This document shows, one piece after another, positions 5,901-64,000 of a DNA stretch of 64,000 bases. The stretch covers positions 2,846,501 to 2,910,500 of the forward strand of contig OX359193.1 in assembly GCA_947172415.1 (NCBI GenBank), read 5' to 3'. The stretch is from Chondrosia reniformis. Lineage: Eukaryota; Porifera; Demospongiae; Chondrillida; Chondrillidae. The position numbers and the translations under genes are program-made. The notes below the pieces were generated by a model. The model saw nothing but the letters and a program-made list of their open reading frames with translations, had not been told where the DNA came from and made no database searches. The first letter of the stretch is position 1; each line of letters opens with the position of its first letter.

Positions 5901-8900
5901 GACAGGGAGGTGGTCCGGGTGGCCTTGGGTCTTAGCTTAGGGGTCACACTGTGTCATCCACATGTGTGCCTGCATTGCCAAGCACAAGTGGACCACCGGG
6001 GCCTCCATGGACTAAGTTGCCGCAGGAGCCAGGGCAGACACCCCCGCCATGCTGCCATTAATGATATTGTTAAGAGATCACTAACATCTGCAGGGGTGCC
6101 ATCTCACTTGGAGCCAACCAGCATCTGTCGATCGGACAGGAAACGACCCGATGGAGCCACAGTAATGCCGTGGAAGACAGGCCGGGTCTTAGTGTGGGAC
6201 GTAACCTGTCCCGACACCTATGCCCCCTCCCACATCTCGTTGGCAACCAGAGAAGCAGGCACTGTAGCAGCTCAGGCGGAACAGAGGAAGCGTTTGAAGT
6301 ACACTGAGCTGGAAGCTAGTCACCACTTCGTTCCAATGGCCATAGAAACTGCAGGAGTCTGTGGTCCGGAGGCCCTGCATTTCTTCTGTGAACTTGGACA
6401 CCGCCTCAAGGCAGAAACAGGAGAGTCACGTTCCCTCCAATTCCTCTTCCAGAGGATCTCGGTTGCCATGTAGAGGGGCAATGCAGCTGCTGTACTGGGC
6501 ACAATCAAAGACAATCGCATTGACAATGTTTTCAATCCTTAATTTCAATTTCAATTAGAACATGTACAGTAAATTCTTACTTGACAATCTTATTTACATA
6601 TTGGTTTACTTATGTATTCATTATTAAGTTTGCAAAATAATCCTAATGTAATTAAATAAATAAATAAATAAATAATACATATGACTCCAAAAGAGGACCT
6701 AGAAAGAAAATGGGCATATCATCATAAAGTTTAGGTATAAAACTCATTTTAAATTAAGGGATTTTTTATTTAGGTCTCTGTTTGGTAGAAAACGGAGAAC
6801 AAAGTCTGCATATAAAATGCCATAGGACTATAGAAAACCTATAGGAAATTTATATTGAAACCAGATGTTATATTGATAAAAATTTTGAATTGGTCAGATC
6901 ACTTTGAAACCAACATATGTCATGGTACTTGTCTATGACAAACATCTGGCGAAATGTTTTTTTAATTAAAATTGCACAATAATCAAGATATAATGAAGAA
7001 TTCAAGGTTATGATTGTGCAATCTGGTGATGTATTATGATGTTTTTGTATTGCGTCACCGACACCCTCATATGTCGCTCCATACATGCACATTTTGTGAA
7101 TCTGTGACATTGCATAAACGTCACCTCATCGTTGCAAAAGAAGATCATCCTTTTGTGAACGCCTATGACAAGTCGTCACTCTCCTACGAAAAGAGCTACC
7201 GAACAGGCGAGTTGTAGCGAAGGTTGGATAAAGCGTTTTTGTATACGTTCTCATCAAGTTTGAGGTAGAGTTATTCCTATGTTGATGTGAAAGACTAAGT
7301 TCGTTTGGTTGACCGTATTACTGTGGTAATTTAAGCTCTGTCTTCTCTCCTTACGTTATCTGTTATTATTTTTACTTATCTATGTGTATCATTACGAGAA
7401 TAAAGCCTTGTTAGTGTCAGCAACATGAATTTACTAATTTCCTATTTATACTGACTTGTATTCCCATTCCTCATGTACTGCTGATGAAGACCTCTGGGTT
7501 GAAATGTCCAGAATTAGCAAATTCATGTTGCTGACGTTCAATAAGGCTTCTTATCCATGTGTATACGTTTTCCATTTGTACATACAGTAGAATCTCATAA
7601 CAAAATTCCTCATAGCAAATGTCTAGTATAGTAAAATACTTTGCTAGCTAATTACATTCAAGTGCACTACACAGTGAAAGTTACTGGCAAATATATATAA
7701 TGTTAAAATGACAATCAAGTACTAGCTATTCAGTGCAAGTTACAAATTTAAAGAGATCCAAGTGACCCCTAGGATAATCAGTATTTTAAATAGTACGTAT
7801 AGTTGTAGGCTTTGAAATCCGCAACTACTGCATAGAGAGTAGTAGTTGATACAGATCATCCAATTGCAAGGTAGAACACATGGCCTACCAATTACCTTTT
7901 CACACCTTAGTATAGATTGAAGATGATGCATCTGCATGCAATATTTCAGCAAAGGTTCCAGTCTGAAAGGGGTCTCAGCTAATAACCACAGCAGATTTGA
8001 TTTACCTTGTGAGGGAGCTAAGAATACCAGCGGTTGGTTGCATGCATTCGCATAATCAACAGGATTACAGACGATTTGGTAACTTTCACACAGGGACATA
8101 AAAGCTGGGGCCTTTATTTCATGAACAATGTCCCTTGTGTGCAAGTTACCAAATCGTCTCTAACCCTGTTGTTTATGCGAATGCATGCAACCAACCAACG
8201 GAACTCCTAGCTCACACTCAAGGCAAGTCAAATGTGCAGTGATTATTGGCTGAGACCCCTTGCATGAGACTGGAAGTTTTGCTGAAAATGACATGCAGAT
8301 GCATCATCTTCAGTCTATACTAAGGTGTGAAAAGGTAATTGGAAGGCCATGTGTTTAACCTTGTATGATCTGTAGAGACTACTACTCTGTATGTTGAAAA
8401 TTTCAGTGTGGCTAAAGTCTTGTAGCGTTTAATATACCTGATTGTGATTATATTGGGAGTCATTTGCATCTGTATTATATTATATACCTCAGTTTGATTA
8501 TTTTGGGAGTCACTTGGTCCGTGTATAAATTTGTAACTTGCACTGTGTAGTACTTGATTGTATTTAAATATGCACACTCCTATATATATATATATTTTTG
8601 TAACATGAAGCCATATAACATAAACAGCTAATGAAAACAATATAAGGGGCTTCCTGAGGCAGCCCCTAAAAATTATGGCAATTCACAGTGAGTCACTTGA
8701 TAAAAATGGCCTATCACATGGAAAAAATATGCACGGCAGACGGGGATGTCCCAGTAACTTAGACAACTAGATAATAGAGGTTCAATTGTATTCATTTTCA
8801 TATACTTTAAATCTTGATATACTAATGTTTCATTCAGACGGTAGAATCAGAAATAACCTAGGAGTTTATTGATGTGATTTGCTAGCCAGGAATGAATAGG

Positions 8901-14900: not shown

Positions 14901-17900
14901 GAGTTGTTTCGTAGCGGCTATAGCATATCGATCATAGCGATTGTACTTGCTTATCTGGATCTGTATGTGTTCAATAGAAGTCTTACATTGCTAAATTTAA
15001 TACACAGTATTCATAAAAATGGAAATATGGCTCCAAGAAAGGACCTAAAAACAGAGTGGGAATAGTATAATAAAGTTTAGGGTATATAACTCATTTTAAA
15101 TTAAGGGATTTTTATTTAGATCTCCGTTTGGTAGAAAATGGGGGACAAAATCTGCATTTAAAATGCCATAGGACTATAGAAAAGCTATAGAAAATTTATA
15201 TTGAAACCAAGTGTTATATTGATAAAAATTATCAATTGGTCAGATCACTGTGAAACCGACATACATCATGGTACATGTATATGACAAACGTCTGGAGAAA
15301 TATTGCTTAATTAAAGATGCCAAATAATCAAGATACAGTGGGCCCTGGTTTAACCGACCTTGAGTTAACCGACAACCTTATTTCACCGAACGAATCGACT
15401 GAAACCGATCTAAATCATATACCCTGTAGGCCCTCGTATATCCAACTCGATTTATCCGTATCCGACAGTACCGTAAATCTTCTAAAAATTCGAAACTCTA
15501 ATTTTCACAAACATTTCGCGATCTTGCACTGAAACGCTCTAAAAATTCGAACTCTTCGCGAACTCTAAATTTCGGAAACGCCCTCTAATTTCGGCAACGC
15601 ACATGTAAAATGGGCACTGCTACCGCTTTCCTATCATGAACGTTCTCATCCTCGTCAAAGCACTCCAGGGGCTCCAAATCTCTTTGTAGCACATGATACT
15701 CACAAATAACGCATGATATCGCGACAAAGAACGAGCCAGAGGCAGCCATTTTGTACCTCCCTAAAATGGCGTCAGAACGCTTCTAATTTCGCAAGAAGTC
15801 TCTAATTTTCGCAAGACGCAAACAAAGGGGCTCATATTTCCTCCTAAACTTCAAAAAGTAAGAATTGAAAAGTCTCAAAAGTTCACGAATTTTTAGAAGA
15901 TTTACGGTATTTTCTGATACAGATTTAGGTATGTGTGTATTTTTTAACCTTTATTATCCGATAGTTGCGGTGTAGATTAAGAAAGTTTCAGAGAATGGCA
16001 GAAAAACGATTGACCGTCAGCAATATCCTTAAAGAATCGTCCTTGTAGAGGATTCCAACAGCACAAATAGAAGACTACCATGCCACAAGAAGATGAAACA
16101 AGCGTTTTTGACTATTCGTGCTTTATCTTATTATTATTTTGCAACCCTTTTTTATCTCACACTTGATTTATCTGACATTTTTGGTTGAAACAAACAGTGT
16201 CAGTTAAACCAGGCCCCACTGTGTAATGAAGAATGCAAGGTTACGATTGCACAATCTGGTGATGTATTGTGATATTTCTCTTGTGCGTCGCCAACAATCT
16301 CCTATGTCGCTCCATATATATTTAGGGAATCATGTGACTTTCCAAAAATGTCATCGTCTCGTTGCAATAGAAGATCATCTCTTTTGTGAACGGCCATGAC
16401 AAGTCAATGCTGTCCTACAAGAAGGAGCTACCGAATAAGCGAGTTATAGCGAAGGTTGGATAAAGCTGTGTACGTTCCCATTAAGTTTGAGGCAGAGTTG
16501 TCCCTATATTGATGCAAAAGAAATTCGTTTAGTCGACCGTATTAAAACTTTGGTAATTTAAGCCCTGTCTTCTCTTATGTTTTCTGTTCATATTTTACTT
16601 GTCCTTTGGAGTGTTTGTTGCGATCATTATGCCTTGTTGCCCCATTCCTGTATTACCGATGAAGACCTCCGGGTTGAAACGTCCAGATTTATGTTACTGA
16701 CAGTCAACGAGGCTTTATTCTTATCCATGTGTACATATAGTCGAATCTCATAACGAAATTGCTCATAGTGAATGTCTAAGTATAGTGAAGTACTTTGCTG
16801 GCTACACTCAACTACACTACAGAGTGGAAGTTACTGGCAAATATTCACCATTTTAATGACATCATAATCAGTCGAAGATTGCAAAACTAAAATGGTTTTA
16901 AAATATAAATCTAATTCCTAGTGCATGCTCCATAATAAGTACAGAAACTACAAATATTACATATTTTCTCCAAAAATAGTGGAGATGTAGGCATAGTACA
17001 AAAAGTACAAAACAACCAATGATGTTACACAGTGAAGCATTAGCTGTGCATGAATCATACAACCAAGGGTGTTGCAGCATATCCGTACATCTGGCAGCAT
17101 GTTGCATGGTGTGCTTACCACCAGAAAATTCATGATGTCTACTCTTATTCTTCCCATGTACATAGCTATATAGGAAGCCTTTGTCTATATCCTACTTTAC
17201 TATACTTACTTGCAGCATTTACACTTATTTCATTGCATGTCATTGTGTGGAGTATACATATTAGGAGGACTGCAGCTTCATCTGTCTCACTTCCTATGCC
17301 AATTTTGCCAGATGTAGGGATATGTTGCAACACCCTTCGTTGTATGATTCACACACGGATAATGCTTCACTGTATAACATCATTTCTTGTTTCTGTACTT
17401 TTGTGCCATCCCTACATCTTTACTATTTTTGTAGGAAATATTTAATATTTCTAGTAAGTAAATGTACTTTCTAAATCCTTTTAATTCAATATTGGACATT
17501 TTCTCTATATATTTGTATAGGATCGAAAATCTGAAATAGGCTGAAAACTGCCGAAAAAGGCTCATTATAGTTAAAAATAGACCAGCCATGCTGTAAACTG
17601 GCCTTTATGGCAAGTGACTGTGTTCCGCTGGCAAATGAACGAACTTTAAATATCCAACTATTGTTTTCTGCTTCATCTTCTTCATCTTCTTCGCACGCTG
17701 CGTTACAGTGTAACTAAAAAAGGAAATGAGCTTTTGGACTACTTGTTATGCAAGAAACCTCTACGTTGCATTCTTTTGTAAAAGTGAGAGTGATAACGTT
17801 ATCATTGAGCATAACACTTGGCCCAAGAGTCAAGGTTTCATAAATTCACCATTTTAATGCGGATAACTCTTCCCTCAAGAGGTCAAATAATATTAAAATG

Positions 17901-20900
17901 TCATGCAGCATTCAGGCTTACAAAACAACTCATCAGCCTATGTACAAGTGGTAGGAAGAGATGGTTGTTCTCAAGTTGTCACACTTATTTTATACGTCGA
18001 TATATGTATAATACGTGTTCATACGTAAATTTTGTAACACGTAATTTATACATCAATACATCTTTTTTGCAAATGGCGGCGTTCAGGAAGCTTTAGTTAA
18101 CGAAGCTTTTCCATCGTTATTTATAAAGTTCAAGACACTTAAGTGTCCTCAATCGTTAGTATTACGAATACATATATTAAATCCCAACGATGCGGCCAAG
18201 TAGTTCAAGTTAATTCGGGGGGCGGCAGCCCCACGAGTTTTTAAACTCGAAACACTTGTTGTAAATGTTTTTATTTACTTTATATATATATTATTATTAT
18301 ACCCTAATTAAACTTTATGATAATATGCCCATTCTGTATCTAGGTCCTTTCTTGGAGCCATATGAATTATTTAATTATTTAGATTATTTATTTAGATTAC
18401 TTTAGTATATTGTAACTTGTTCTGTTAATATATTGTAACTTGTACTGTATATATATATACAGTACAAGTTACAATATACTAAGGTAATCTAAATAAATAA
18501 ATAAATAATATAATATAAAATCAATAATTCATATGGCTCCAAGAAAGAAACAGAATGGGCATATCATCATAAAGTTTAGGGTATAAAACTCATTTTAAAA
18601 TAAAGGATTTTTCATTTAGGCCTCCGTTTGTTAGAAAACAGAGGACAAAGTCTGCATATAAAATGCCATAGGACTATAGAAAATCTATAGGAAATTTATA
18701 TTGAAACCAGGTGTTATATTGATAAAAAAATTCAATTGGTCAGATCATTTTGAAACCAACATATATCATGGTACATGTCTATGACAAACATCTGGCGAAA
18801 TTTTAATTAAAATTGCAAAATAATCCAGATATAATGAAGAATTCAAGGTTATGATTGTGCAATCTGGTGATGTATTATGATGTTTTTGTATTAATTGTGT
18901 CACCAACACCCTTGTATGTCGCTCCGTACATGCACACGTTGTGAATCTGTGACGTTACGCAACGTCACCTCATTGTTGCAAAAGAAGATCATCCTTTTGT
19001 GAACGGCTATGACAAGTCGACGCTCTCCTACGAGAAGGAGCTAACAAACAGGCGAGTTGTAAAGAAGGTAAGATAAAGCGTTTTTGTATACGTTCCCGTC
19101 AAGTTTGAGGCAGAGTATTCTTAGCTCCCTCACAAGGCAAATCAAATCTGCTGTGGTTATTGGCTGAGACGCCTTTAAGACTGGAACCTTTGTTGATATA
19201 TGGCATGCAGATGCATCATCTTCATTCTACACTAAGGTGTGAAAAGGTATTTGGTAGGCCATATGTTCTACCTTGCAATTGGATGATCTGTATCAACTAC
19301 TACTCTCTATGCAGTAGTTGAGAATTTCAAAGCCTGCAACAGTGTGACTAAAGTCTTGTACTCATACTGATTATCCTATGGGTCACTTGGATCTCTTTAA
19401 ATTTGTAACTTGCACTGCATGTGTAGCTAGTACTTGATTGTAATTTTAATATTGTATAGTCACTTGGCCCTCTTAAATTTGTAACTTGTACTGTGTAGTA
19501 CTTGATTGTAATTTTAATATTTTATACATTTGCCAGTAACTTTCACTGTGTAGTGTACTTGAGTGTAATTAGCCAGCAAATAACTTCACTATACTTAGAC
19601 ATTCTCAGTATGAGCAATTTCGTTATGAGATTATACTGTATGTACATTAATGAATAAGAATATATAGCCTTGTTGAACGTCAGTAACATAAAATTTACTA
19701 ATTCTGGAAGTTTCAACCCGGAGGTCTTCATCAGTAACATAGGAATGGGAATATCAAGTAGGAAATTTGTAAATTCATGTTGCTGACGCTCAACAAGGCT
19801 TTATTCTCATAATGATCGCAACAAACACTCCTTATTCCTACACATGGACAAAACATAAGAAGAGAAGACGGAGCTTAAATTACCAAAGTTTTAATACGGT
19901 CGACAAAACGAATTTCTTTTGCATCAATATAGGGACAATTCTGCCTTAAACTTAACGGGAACATATACAACAAATACGCTTTATCTAACCTTTGCTAGAA
20001 CTCGCTTATTCGGTAGCTCCTTCTCGTAGTAGACCATCGACTTGTCATAGCCGTTCACAAAAGGGATGGTCTTCTTTAGCAACGAGGCAGTGACGTTTTC
20101 GCAACATCAAATGATTCTCAAAATGTATGCGCAGGGACATACGTATGGAACGCGGAATGCGACAAAATTCACGAGTGAAATTTACAGTACGAAAACCGAG
20201 TTTCCAATCGATTTTCTAAACGATTTCGAAAACGATTGAATAATCGATTTTCTAAACGATTGTGTAATCGATTTCGTAAACGATTGTATAGTATAAATTT
20301 TGGAATCGCGACTGCAAAAGGAACAGCTGCATCAACTAACTTAGTGTAGTACGTGTATGCAAACAAAATGACCGCTCAAAGAGACAATATCACCAAAGAG
20401 CAGATTGAAAAAGCTAGAGAAGCCCTAGACATCCTCTCATCCCCTCTCATGTGATTGATTGAGATGAATTGATTATTAAATGTGATGATCAACTAGCACA
20501 AGTTTCCTGTGGCACATAACTATTACACATACAGACATAATCACATATTATTTGAATGAGTATTAGTAAAGGTTTTCGCTGCAATAAAATGGCTAAGTAG
20601 AGTCTCTTGTGTGTACCCATCCATAAGGTAATTAGTGCTATGAAATTCTTGTACAACTTCTTCTGTTAGGATCTCTGAAACCTCCTCTACAGTGACACGA
20701 TTGTCTTCTTCATGGAGAACGACTTCATTCCAATCAATTCCATACTGGTCCCAATGACACTGCAATGGATATATAGATAATTATATATATAAATAGATAC
20801 AGATACAATATCTACATAGATGCACCTCAATATCGATACATTCATTGTATAATTTGTGTTCAGATGTATAGTTGTGCAATATACCTCTGAAATTCCAGTA

Positions 20901-23900
20901 ACTGCCTCATGCATAGGGTCTGCAATATTCATTGCATGGAGTCCCAAAATCCAAAGCTGATTTGGAGTTCTGTTCCCCTCAGTTCGAAGTGGATGATTGG
21001 CCCAGCCATGTCTAAAGAGATCAAGTTGCTTCTGGATAACAGGAATAAATGACACGTGGAGTGCATACAAATCCATGGTGTCCTCATGATTTAACAAGCC
21101 AGCATCTTCCAAAAAGTAGAAAAAATGATAAAAAAGGGAAATGCACCCTGAAAAAAGGTCCCTCCACAAACGTTCAATTCTTTGGTTGTGTGTACTTATA
21201 CCTGTTATTACACTTCCTCTTCCAACTCCACGCTGTGAATGGTCCAGCATATACTGTGCAACAAGAACATTCTCTCCACCTCTGTCTGTTCTGACTCGTG
21301 AAGGTAGACCATACTCACTAACTGTAGAAAGAAAGGCAGACAATACTGTTGCACACCAGTTCTTGGTTGATGCCTTTAGAAAGGTGATCATCCGACTGTA
21401 TCCATCTATACCCCCATGAATAACAATTTGCCACCGTATCAGTTTATGATATCCATCCAGATGCCAAAGTGCATTTGGAGCAACCACTGAATAAGCCCGC
21501 CTACGCAAAAGTCTACAAACACGTGCTTCAACACCTGTCGGGTCCACGCTTCGTAATGACTCCCTTATTCTTTCTCTCTGCACATGTATTCCCTGACTTC
21601 TCAGCCTACCACGAATTGTCTTTTCTCCAATTAATGGATGTAACTCACACATATTCCCTATAGATTCATCTAATTCCAAATCAGTAAGTGGAGTAAAATT
21701 GCGACCAGACATTCCATACTTACTTAGTCGTCGTTCAATGGTTCTCCTACTACAACCAAACATACTAGCAATGTCTGCAATCTTGAATCCTTCATCTATA
21801 AGGAACCCTATTTGATCCTTTTGTATTGGTATTTCAGGGCGATCTCTTTTTCTCAAATATGTACTTTGCTGTAGGTCTGATTCCATTAATAGGAGAAGAT
21901 TTTGGATATTTGAGACAAGTAGACCTCCTTCTTCAGGTAGAAATTCCTCAATTAGGACTAAATATTGTAGCACTTGCTCACAAAAGCTTATTAGATCATT
22001 TCTGACGTCTTCACTACCAGCTTCATAATTTCTGAGTATACATTGGATTACAATCTCTACTAACTGAAGCACACATTCCTTTATTTCTTGGATTTCATCC
22101 ATGAAGCGTGTTTAAACAATCCAAACTATCCTGGCGGGTCTACTTGTAATGTGCGCATGCTCAGAAAAGGGAAATTCTAATCGACTGCAAAGTCGTTCGC
22201 AAATTCGTTTAGGTAATCGTTTACGAACTCATTTATGCAATCGTTTTGAAAATCGGTTTAAAAATCGGTATTCGTTTAGAAAATCGATTGGAAACTCGGT
22301 TTTCGTACTGTAGATTTCACTCGTGAATTTTGTCGCATTCCGCGTTCCATACATACAGAGTTTTGTTGGTGACGCAATATAAAACATCATAATACATCAC
22401 CAGATTGCACAATCATAACCTTGAATTCTTCATTATATCTTGATTATTTTGCAATTTTAATTAAACAAAATTTCGCCAGATGTTTGTCATAGACATGTAC
22501 CATGATATATGTTGGTTTCAAAGTGATCTGACCAATTGAATTTTTTATCAATATAACACCTGGTTTCAATATAAATTTCCTATAGATTTTCTATAGTCCT
22601 ATGGCATTTTATATGCAGACTTTGTCCTCTGTTTTCTACCAAACGGAGGCCTAAATAAAAAATCACTTTATTTATACCTAAACTTTATGATGATATGCCT
22701 ATTTTGTTTCTAGGTCGTTTCTTGGAGCCATATGAATTATATTAATTATATTAGATTGTATTAGATTAGATTACCTTAGTATATTGTAACTTGTACTGTA
22801 TAAATATATATATTCCTAATATGACTAATACATCTGCTTAACCATACACTTCTGCGGTTGGTCACACCAAGCTGAAGCAGGAATGGTGCGCCCGAATAGA
22901 GTCTAAACTTGTCTGCAGGTCTTCCTCACTAGATTCAATGAACACTAAATCATCTGTATATATACAAGAGGTGCACTATCCTTTCACTGCCTAAGACCTC
23001 ACCATTTTTGTTAGCCCTTAGTGCAGTCCCAATATTACCGTATAGCAAGAAACTTTGGCAGGCAATATATTTGGCGAAATTCCTGATTTTTGCATTGGGC
23101 GAGTTTTATATTTGGCGGATTGCCCCATAACTATGATGCAATCATTGGCTTAATTGTTTAAATGGACGAGGGTACTGTTACGTTTGAAATTGATAACTGC
23201 ATTTGCGAATTTGGCCAAAAATTAAATTTGGCAAGCTTGGAACTACTTGCAAAATTGCTATTTGGTATCAACCACGAACAAATAGGCTGAATAATATGGT
23301 GGACAGGATGCATCCTTACCTAAGCCCCCTTCCAACATTAAAAGGTCCAACCTTCACCTACTTTGACCTGATATTGGACATAATGGTATATCAGGAACAT
23401 CAATAAACTGTGGATATTACCCCTGCCCACTCATCTCCCCTGATGGGCAGGGATAATATCAGCTAATGGGCAGAACCTAAGTTTGCTTAATGGGAACTGG
23501 AGTCTTCTCCTAGCTACTCAAAAAGATGATCAAGCTATAGCCAACTGTTTCTTCCTTAGTAGGACTCATCAGTATGGCATACGATGGAAGTTTGAGTGGC
23601 TAGTCTGCTAATAAGAACTCCTGAATTAAAGCAAGAGATGCTTCTGCTTTCCTTATCAACAGATAAGGGGTACGGCCAAAAGTGTGGCTGACCAATAATA
23701 TAAAAATATATGGGGAACTTTATGATCTAATTAAAGCCGATCTTAAAGCAAAACAACATTGAACTCTCTTTTTCCATATTACGTTTTGTACAGGTACTAT
23801 TTCTGAATCAAATTCATTTCTTATTCAACAGTGGGGAGGACTTGTGGTTTATAACTCACCTAAAATGAATACATCCCAAAAGCATCATGACTTGCCAATG

Positions 23901-63119: not shown

Positions 63120-64000
63120 GCTGCCATAGCCCTCTATTGTTTTCATAACACGATTTATATATGGCTTCATGTTACGGATATATATATATATACAGTGCAA
63201 GTTACAATATACTAAGGTAATCTAATATAAATAATATAATATAATATAAATAATGTAATTAAATAGTTCATATGGCTCCAAGAAAGGACCTGGAAACAAA
63301 CTAAGCATATCATCATAAAGTGAAGGGTATAAAACGCATTTTGAATTAAGGGATTTCTTACTTAGGCCTCAGTTTGTTAGAAAACGGAGGACAAAGTCTG
63401 CATAAAAAAGGCCATAGGACTATAGAAAACCTATGGGAAATTTATATTCAAACCATGTGTTATATTAATAAAAAAAATTTCAATTGGTCAGATCATTTTG
63501 AAACTGACATATATCATGGTACATGTGTAAGACAAACGTGTGGCGAAATATTGCTTAATTAAAATTGCAAAATAATCAAGATATAATGAAGAATTCAAGG
63601 TTAGGATTGCGCAATCTGGTGATGTAGGGTGATGTTTCTCTAGTGCGTCACCGACAACCTCGTATGTTGCTCCATACACATTTAGTGAATCATGTGACAT
63701 TGCGAAAACGTCACCGGCTCGTTGCTAAAGAAGATCATCCTTTCGAGAACGGCTATGACAAGTCGACGCTCCCCTACGAGAAGGAGCTACCGAATAAACG
63801 ACTTGTAGCGAAGGTTAGACAAAGCATATTTATATACGTTCATGTTAAGTTTAAGCCAAAATTGTTGCTATATATAGAAGGACAATTCTGCCTGGAATTT
63901 TTGCTGATAATGGCATGCATATGCATCATCTTCAGTCTATACTAAGGTGTGAAAATATAATTGGAAGGCCATGTGTTTAACCTTATATGATCTGTAGAGA
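63120..64000 (+). repeat. Family A repeat, copy 4, running off the window
   Basis: TATATATATATACAGTGCAA at 63180 gives the family terminus, followed by the whole left-arm consensus (ATGGCTCCAAGAAAGGACCT, GCCATAGGACTATAGAAAAC, GCGTCACCGACAACCTCGTA). From about 63890 comes the GCATCATCTTCAGTCTATAC segment seen at 8290. The hammerhead-bearing part is deleted or lies outside. Confidence 0.72.

Follow-up and report, generated by a model that had tools for sequence, protein, structure and literature searches.

The locus considered here raises the question of which kind of mobile element interrupts one arm of a host inverted repeat in the genome of the sponge Chondrosia reniformis, and whether its copy can still be a source of transposase. 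The window, meaning the whole stretch of 64,000 nucleotides that was analysed (contig OX359193.1, positions 2,846,501 to 2,910,500), had been described in an initial annotation as carrying a possibly active DDE-integrase DNA transposon that has TIRs and subterminal repeats and encodes its transposase in spliced form, and all of these structural attributes are upheld, while the suggestion of activity is not. The element is very probably a complete but decaying copy of an autonomous DNA transposon of cut-and-paste type belonging to the IS3EU (IS3EU/GingerRoot) superfamily. It adds a member to this already known superfamily and does not define a new kind of element.

Termini, target-site duplication and the interrupted host repeat

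The whole element spans positions 20144 to 22351 (2208 bp, minus strand) and combines TATGG..CCATA termini, TIRs, a 6-bp target-site duplication (TSD) and an rva_4 transposase. Ungapped alignment of the outer 84 bp of the left TIR (20144 to 20227, plus strand) and the right TIR (22268 to 22351, minus strand) gives 81 identical positions, with the first 38 bases read inward, beginning TATGGAACGCGG, equal at both ends, and a wider inverted match between the ends covers 146 nt at 86% identity, in agreement with the earlier claim of TIRs matching over about 80 bp. The ends themselves had been placed one base further out, at 20143 and 22352. The base preceding TATGG at the corresponding end is C in a 98% identical copy on contig C8 but G in the window copy, and among copies it is not fixed, being G, A or C. 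Because this outer base varies between copies, the element start is set at the T of TATGG, and the outermost G/C pair is assigned to the flank.

The left TSD reads CATACG (20138 to 20143, plus strand) and the right one CATACA (22352 to 22357, plus strand), giving a duplication of 6 bp with a 5/6 match and one substitution. The host element, an inverted repeat designated family A (18448 to 22824, no strand assigned), was delimited by comparisons within the window and by uninterrupted paralogous sites. Four such sites in the window read CATACA, CATACG, CATAGG and CATATG at the target, and the flanks joined with a single TSD copy form a continuous host repeat when set against them, as had been proposed, save that the lengths differ by 2 bases immediately past the target. 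Copies or pieces of family A lie at 6638 to 8571, 15025 to 16842, 18448 to 22824 and 63167 to 63996 of the window, and are mostly 72-89% alike.

The duplication had originally been called as a 4-bp ATAC; the flanking duplication itself stands, and its length is corrected. The empty-site comparison looks alike under a 4-bp or a 6-bp reading, and for the window copy and the related loci L048 and L046 a longer TIR combined with a 4-bp TSD is an equally good description, since the bases immediately flanking their two ends are complementary by chance. Preference for 6 bp over 4 bp is decided by L050, whose outer bases are non-complementary, by the variable outer base and by the literature. In the inverted-repeat scan, which comprised 81 loci (many overlapping, with the best three repeats per locus), 14 of which were inspected for TATGG-type ends, the TATGG..CCATA termini of the window copy recurred in L046, L048 and L050. 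These three other families with both ends carry perfect 6/6 duplications (L048, CTTTTG; L050, CGTGTA; L046, TATACA), where 4-bp duplications had been expected of further copies, which changes the length called but does not speak against a transposon. Another inverted-repeat family, L068, has one decayed end and flanks agreeing at 4/6 positions, and L064, with decayed ends, was left out of the TSD scoring. A single substitution in the TSD can disguise a 6-bp element as a 4-bp one, and the match to IS3EU had been hidden because the one-substitution 6-bp duplication was misread as 4 bp. The targets CATACA or CATACG, TATACA, CTTTTG and CGTGTA all fit YNNNNR, four sites being too few to establish a preference.

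A spliced transposase with an integrase core

The transposase is encoded on the minus strand by exon 1 (20885 to 22102, 406 aa), comprising an N-terminal region, a helix-turn-helix at about residues 95-130 and an rva_4/rve core at residues 204-388, and by exon 2 (20541 to 20759, 72 aa plus stop), separated by a 125-bp GT..AG intron (20760 to 20884). Removal of this intron yields an open frame of 478 aa from Met to stop, as originally read, and the open-frame list holds no other frame longer than 95 aa inside the element. The D, D and E catalytic positions noted before are D216, D273 and E310, with spacings of 56 and 36 (D216-x56-D273-x36-E310). A profile search, which had been suggested as a check of integrase-core homology, matched exon 1 to Pfam PF24764 (rva_4) with 258.7 bits and an E-value of 4.3e-77; exon 1 also matches helix-turn-helix models, among which HTH_23 scores barely above its cut-off (25.3 versus 24.6 bits), while the rve score of 22.4 bits falls under the cut-off for that family. 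In the PDB, a profile search gave no match at 0.01, and a single-sequence search returned eight weak matches, six of them integrases, with a best E-value of 0.0026.

The window protein was aligned with seven relatives chosen from open frames and 38-57% identical to it; four of these are partial (L047, L050, L053 and L045), and inclusion of the close pairs L049/L053 and L045/L050 means that the seven stand for five families. All eight aligned sponge homologues match rva_4 and rve and three match HTH_23, and at an E-value of 0.01 the Pfam search returned no zinc-finger family for any of the eight. The predicted intron has independent support from these and other relatives: in L045, about 46% identical, inspection of the DNA by eye places a GT..AG intron at the homologous position, and exon 2-like peptides (YGIDW...GPV) occur in diverged families, namely L044 (E 0.008), L045 (E 0.13) and L062 (11 residues, E 7.8), each of them weak singly.

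Outside this genome, transposase relatives that are 49-55% identical in the best segment lie on LWTN01000118.1, LWTN01000139.1 and QPIL01000069.1, three of 31 pattern matches; these three contigs were deposited within metagenome-assembled genomes of bacterial symbionts (Cycloclasticus, Methylococcales) of other sponges. LWTN01000139.1 also encodes a retroelement protease and an RT-RNase H, and QPIL01000069.1 a HECT domain together with a transposase split as though by an intron; the most likely origin of the three contigs is DNA of the sponge hosts that was misbinned. Among viral contigs, none of 48 pattern matches was a relative.

Copies in the genome and decay of the window copy

At least 77 rva_4 matches are present in the genome, to be counted as fragments or exons rather than copies, many of them fragmentary or stop-bearing, as compared to none in 14 control genomes. 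The element terminus at up to three mismatches occurs 10 times in the genome, two of these being the window's own ends, versus no occurrence of the reversed control. Within its family, the window copy is the only one that the genome search found with both ends. In the copy on contig C8, 98% identical, one end is missing, exon 1 is interrupted by a TAG stop and exon 2 contains indels. Extension of the loci L047 and L049 revealed no inverted repeats around them. Two further rva_4 loci on different chromosomes, L054 (C12) and L055 (C7), share 99.8% identity across 2599 bp or more, up to both locus ends, and represent a very recent duplication or transposition; a TATGG end was not seen at the near boundary of this match.

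Comparison of the window and C8 copies reveals 22 differences among 1218 sites of exon 1, of which 21 are nonsynonymous and one is synonymous, against a neutral expectation of 5.0 synonymous changes. Outside exon 1, substitutions number 5/249 in the 5' end, 5/219 in exon 2, 0/125 in the intron (with one indel) and 0/91 in the 3' end. The shortage of synonymous changes gives a one-sided P of 0.026 in one of 16 rows of comparison, some of which overlap, and none of the other 15 falls below 0.05 in this direction, with two leaning towards few synonymous changes (L064 versus L069, 0/10, P 0.056; window versus a copy on contig C1, P 0.072) and L047 versus L044 exhibiting the opposite, purifying pattern (P 1.2e-6). 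An unusual mutation process, considered in view of these counts, was dropped, as P 0.026 was reached in just one of the 16 rows.

Residues invariant among relatives were defined as the 54 alignment columns that are occupied by five or more relatives and show one residue in all of those present. The window copy departs from six of these, sharing two changes with the C8 copy and having four of its own (residues 87, 185, 225 and 247), at which the C8 copy keeps the common residue. This pattern is read as decay without constraint after insertion, and the window copy probably no longer supplies functional transposase. The sequence consequently lends no support to the label of a possibly active element, given that this is the sole complete copy found, that its divergence from the C8 copy is near neutral and that changes have accumulated at invariant residues. 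Evidence of recent activity was likewise rejected, and the TSD mismatch, the four changes peculiar to the window copy at the 54 invariant columns and the 21:1 ratio relative to C8 are taken as signs of decay.

Subterminal arrays, superfamily assignment and comparison with known elements

Both ends carry subterminal arrays of 12-bp units. The left one (20197 to 20290, plus strand), built around AATCGATT / AAACGATT, comprises seven CGATT-centred motif matches at a constant spacing of 12 bp, in phase with the TIR, whereas the 12-bp units of the right one (22187 to 22306, minus strand) are more degenerate and shift in phase; both were detected by self-match and TRF. At a multiple of 12 bp, the self-match peaks at 0.81 on the left and 0.64 on the right, while 500 simple base shuffles reach at most 0.59 and 0.50, the stretches having been picked because an array was visible there. 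Scanned in the same manner, L048 (20 bp; 0.58/0.52 versus shuffle maxima of 0.40/0.41) and L046 (21 bp; 0.45/0.47 versus 0.40/0.40) have arrays above every shuffle, while L068 (17 bp; 0.42/0.46 versus 0.46/0.46) and L050 have none beyond shuffles. Arrays exceeding all shuffles are hence found in three of five families examined, with a different unit in each. The repeats had been likened to binding-site arrays; the arrays themselves are real by this measure, and they are putative binding sites of the transposase.

The N-terminal helix-turn-helix of the spliced 478-aa transposase would recognise the element ends, with the subterminal 12-bp arrays as the probable contact sites. The RNase-H-fold DDE core would then cut at the TA termini, and joining of the 3' ends to target positions 6 bp apart would generate the 6-bp duplication. 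Beyond what is directly observed (termini, TIRs, 6-bp TSD, coding capacity, shared intron, DDE positions and related families with the same ends), we infer cut-and-paste chemistry for the element and past activity of its lineage. More speculatively, and with doubts somewhat outweighing our confidence, sponge IS3EU families might keep a similar terminal sequence while the array unit and its period (12, 20 or 21 bp) turn over, such that helix-turn-helix and array co-diversify. If true, co-diversification would give each sponge IS3EU family a private recognition of its own ends.

IS3EU families have TA..TA termini and usually a 6-bp TSD, and they are united with GingerRoot in a single lineage (PMC10045372), with fungal IS3EU elements having TAYGG..CCRTA ends, TIRs longer than 30 bp and a 6-bp TSD (PMC12730594). 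The TATGG..CCATA ends of the window copy, L046, L048 and L050, the 84-bp outer TIR stretch with 81 identities, the duplications (6/6 in three other families, 5/6 in the window, 4/6 in L068) and a DDE integrase-like rva_4/rve transposase with no zinc-finger match agree with this description. The assignment, which rests on termini, TSD and integrase core rather than on a tree with Repbase proteins, links rva_4 proteins to IS3EU in a sponge and ties PF24764 integrase-core proteins, familiar to the initial annotation as uncharacterised, to an element whose ends, TSD length and gene structure are defined. A literature search that excluded most subscription journals and Repbase entries retrieved no work joining IS3EU with subterminal arrays and nothing joining IS3EU with Porifera beyond one paper listed as dealing with Tc1/mariner elements.

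It is very unlikely that the element is an integrase transposon of Ginger1/Ginger2 type, or a new one, that duplicates 4 bp of target, even though counting the outer G/C pair as TIR leaves it flanked by exact copies of ATAC and TSDs are 4 bp in Ginger1 and 4 or 5 bp in Ginger2 (PMC10045372). The outer base of that pair differs in the 98% identical C8 copy, the four scored copies all have 6 bp (one with a mismatch, the three from other families 6/6), a Pfam zinc finger was reported in 0/8 members at E 0.01, and rva_4 outscores rve by 258.7 to 22.4 bits. An IS481EU-like element could make duplications of about 4 bp, and the published tree leaves IS481EU and IS3EU/GingerRoot unseparated; such an assignment is nevertheless extremely improbable, as elements of that group are described in the same source (PMC10045372) as parabasalid, with TNT..AYA or TGT..ACA termini and TSDs of about 4, 15 or 25 bp, unlike the TA..TA ends (TATGG..CCATA in the window copy) and 6 bp seen here. 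Retention by the sponge of a domesticated transposase gene that is no longer a mobile element would account for the intact frame with its intron in the window copy, but is scarcely credible when TIRs and TSD are still there, the comparison with C8 shows no constraint (1/22 synonymous, 5.0 expected) and four changes of the window copy affect residues invariant in the aligned relatives.

The IS3EU assignment can be placed against its neighbours as follows. With Ginger1/Ginger2 the window element has in common an integrase-like DDE core and a cut-and-paste transposon organisation, and it differs from them by their 4- or 5-bp TSDs and by the N-terminal HHCC finger of Ginger1, (PMC10045372), none being detected here. 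With the parabasalid IS481EU transposons it shares the integrase-like DDE core, TIRs and the absence of a zinc finger, but neither termini nor TSD length. Fungal TET-bearing IS3EU members carry TET/JBP and alpha-kinase genes (PMC12730594), whereas in the window element no open frame besides the transposase is longer than 95 aa. With IS3EU/GingerRoot in general it shares TAYGG..CCRTA termini, TIRs longer than 30 bp, the 6-bp TSD and an integrase-like DDE transposase in which no HHCC finger was found, and it is set apart by its sponge host and its subterminal 12-bp arrays.
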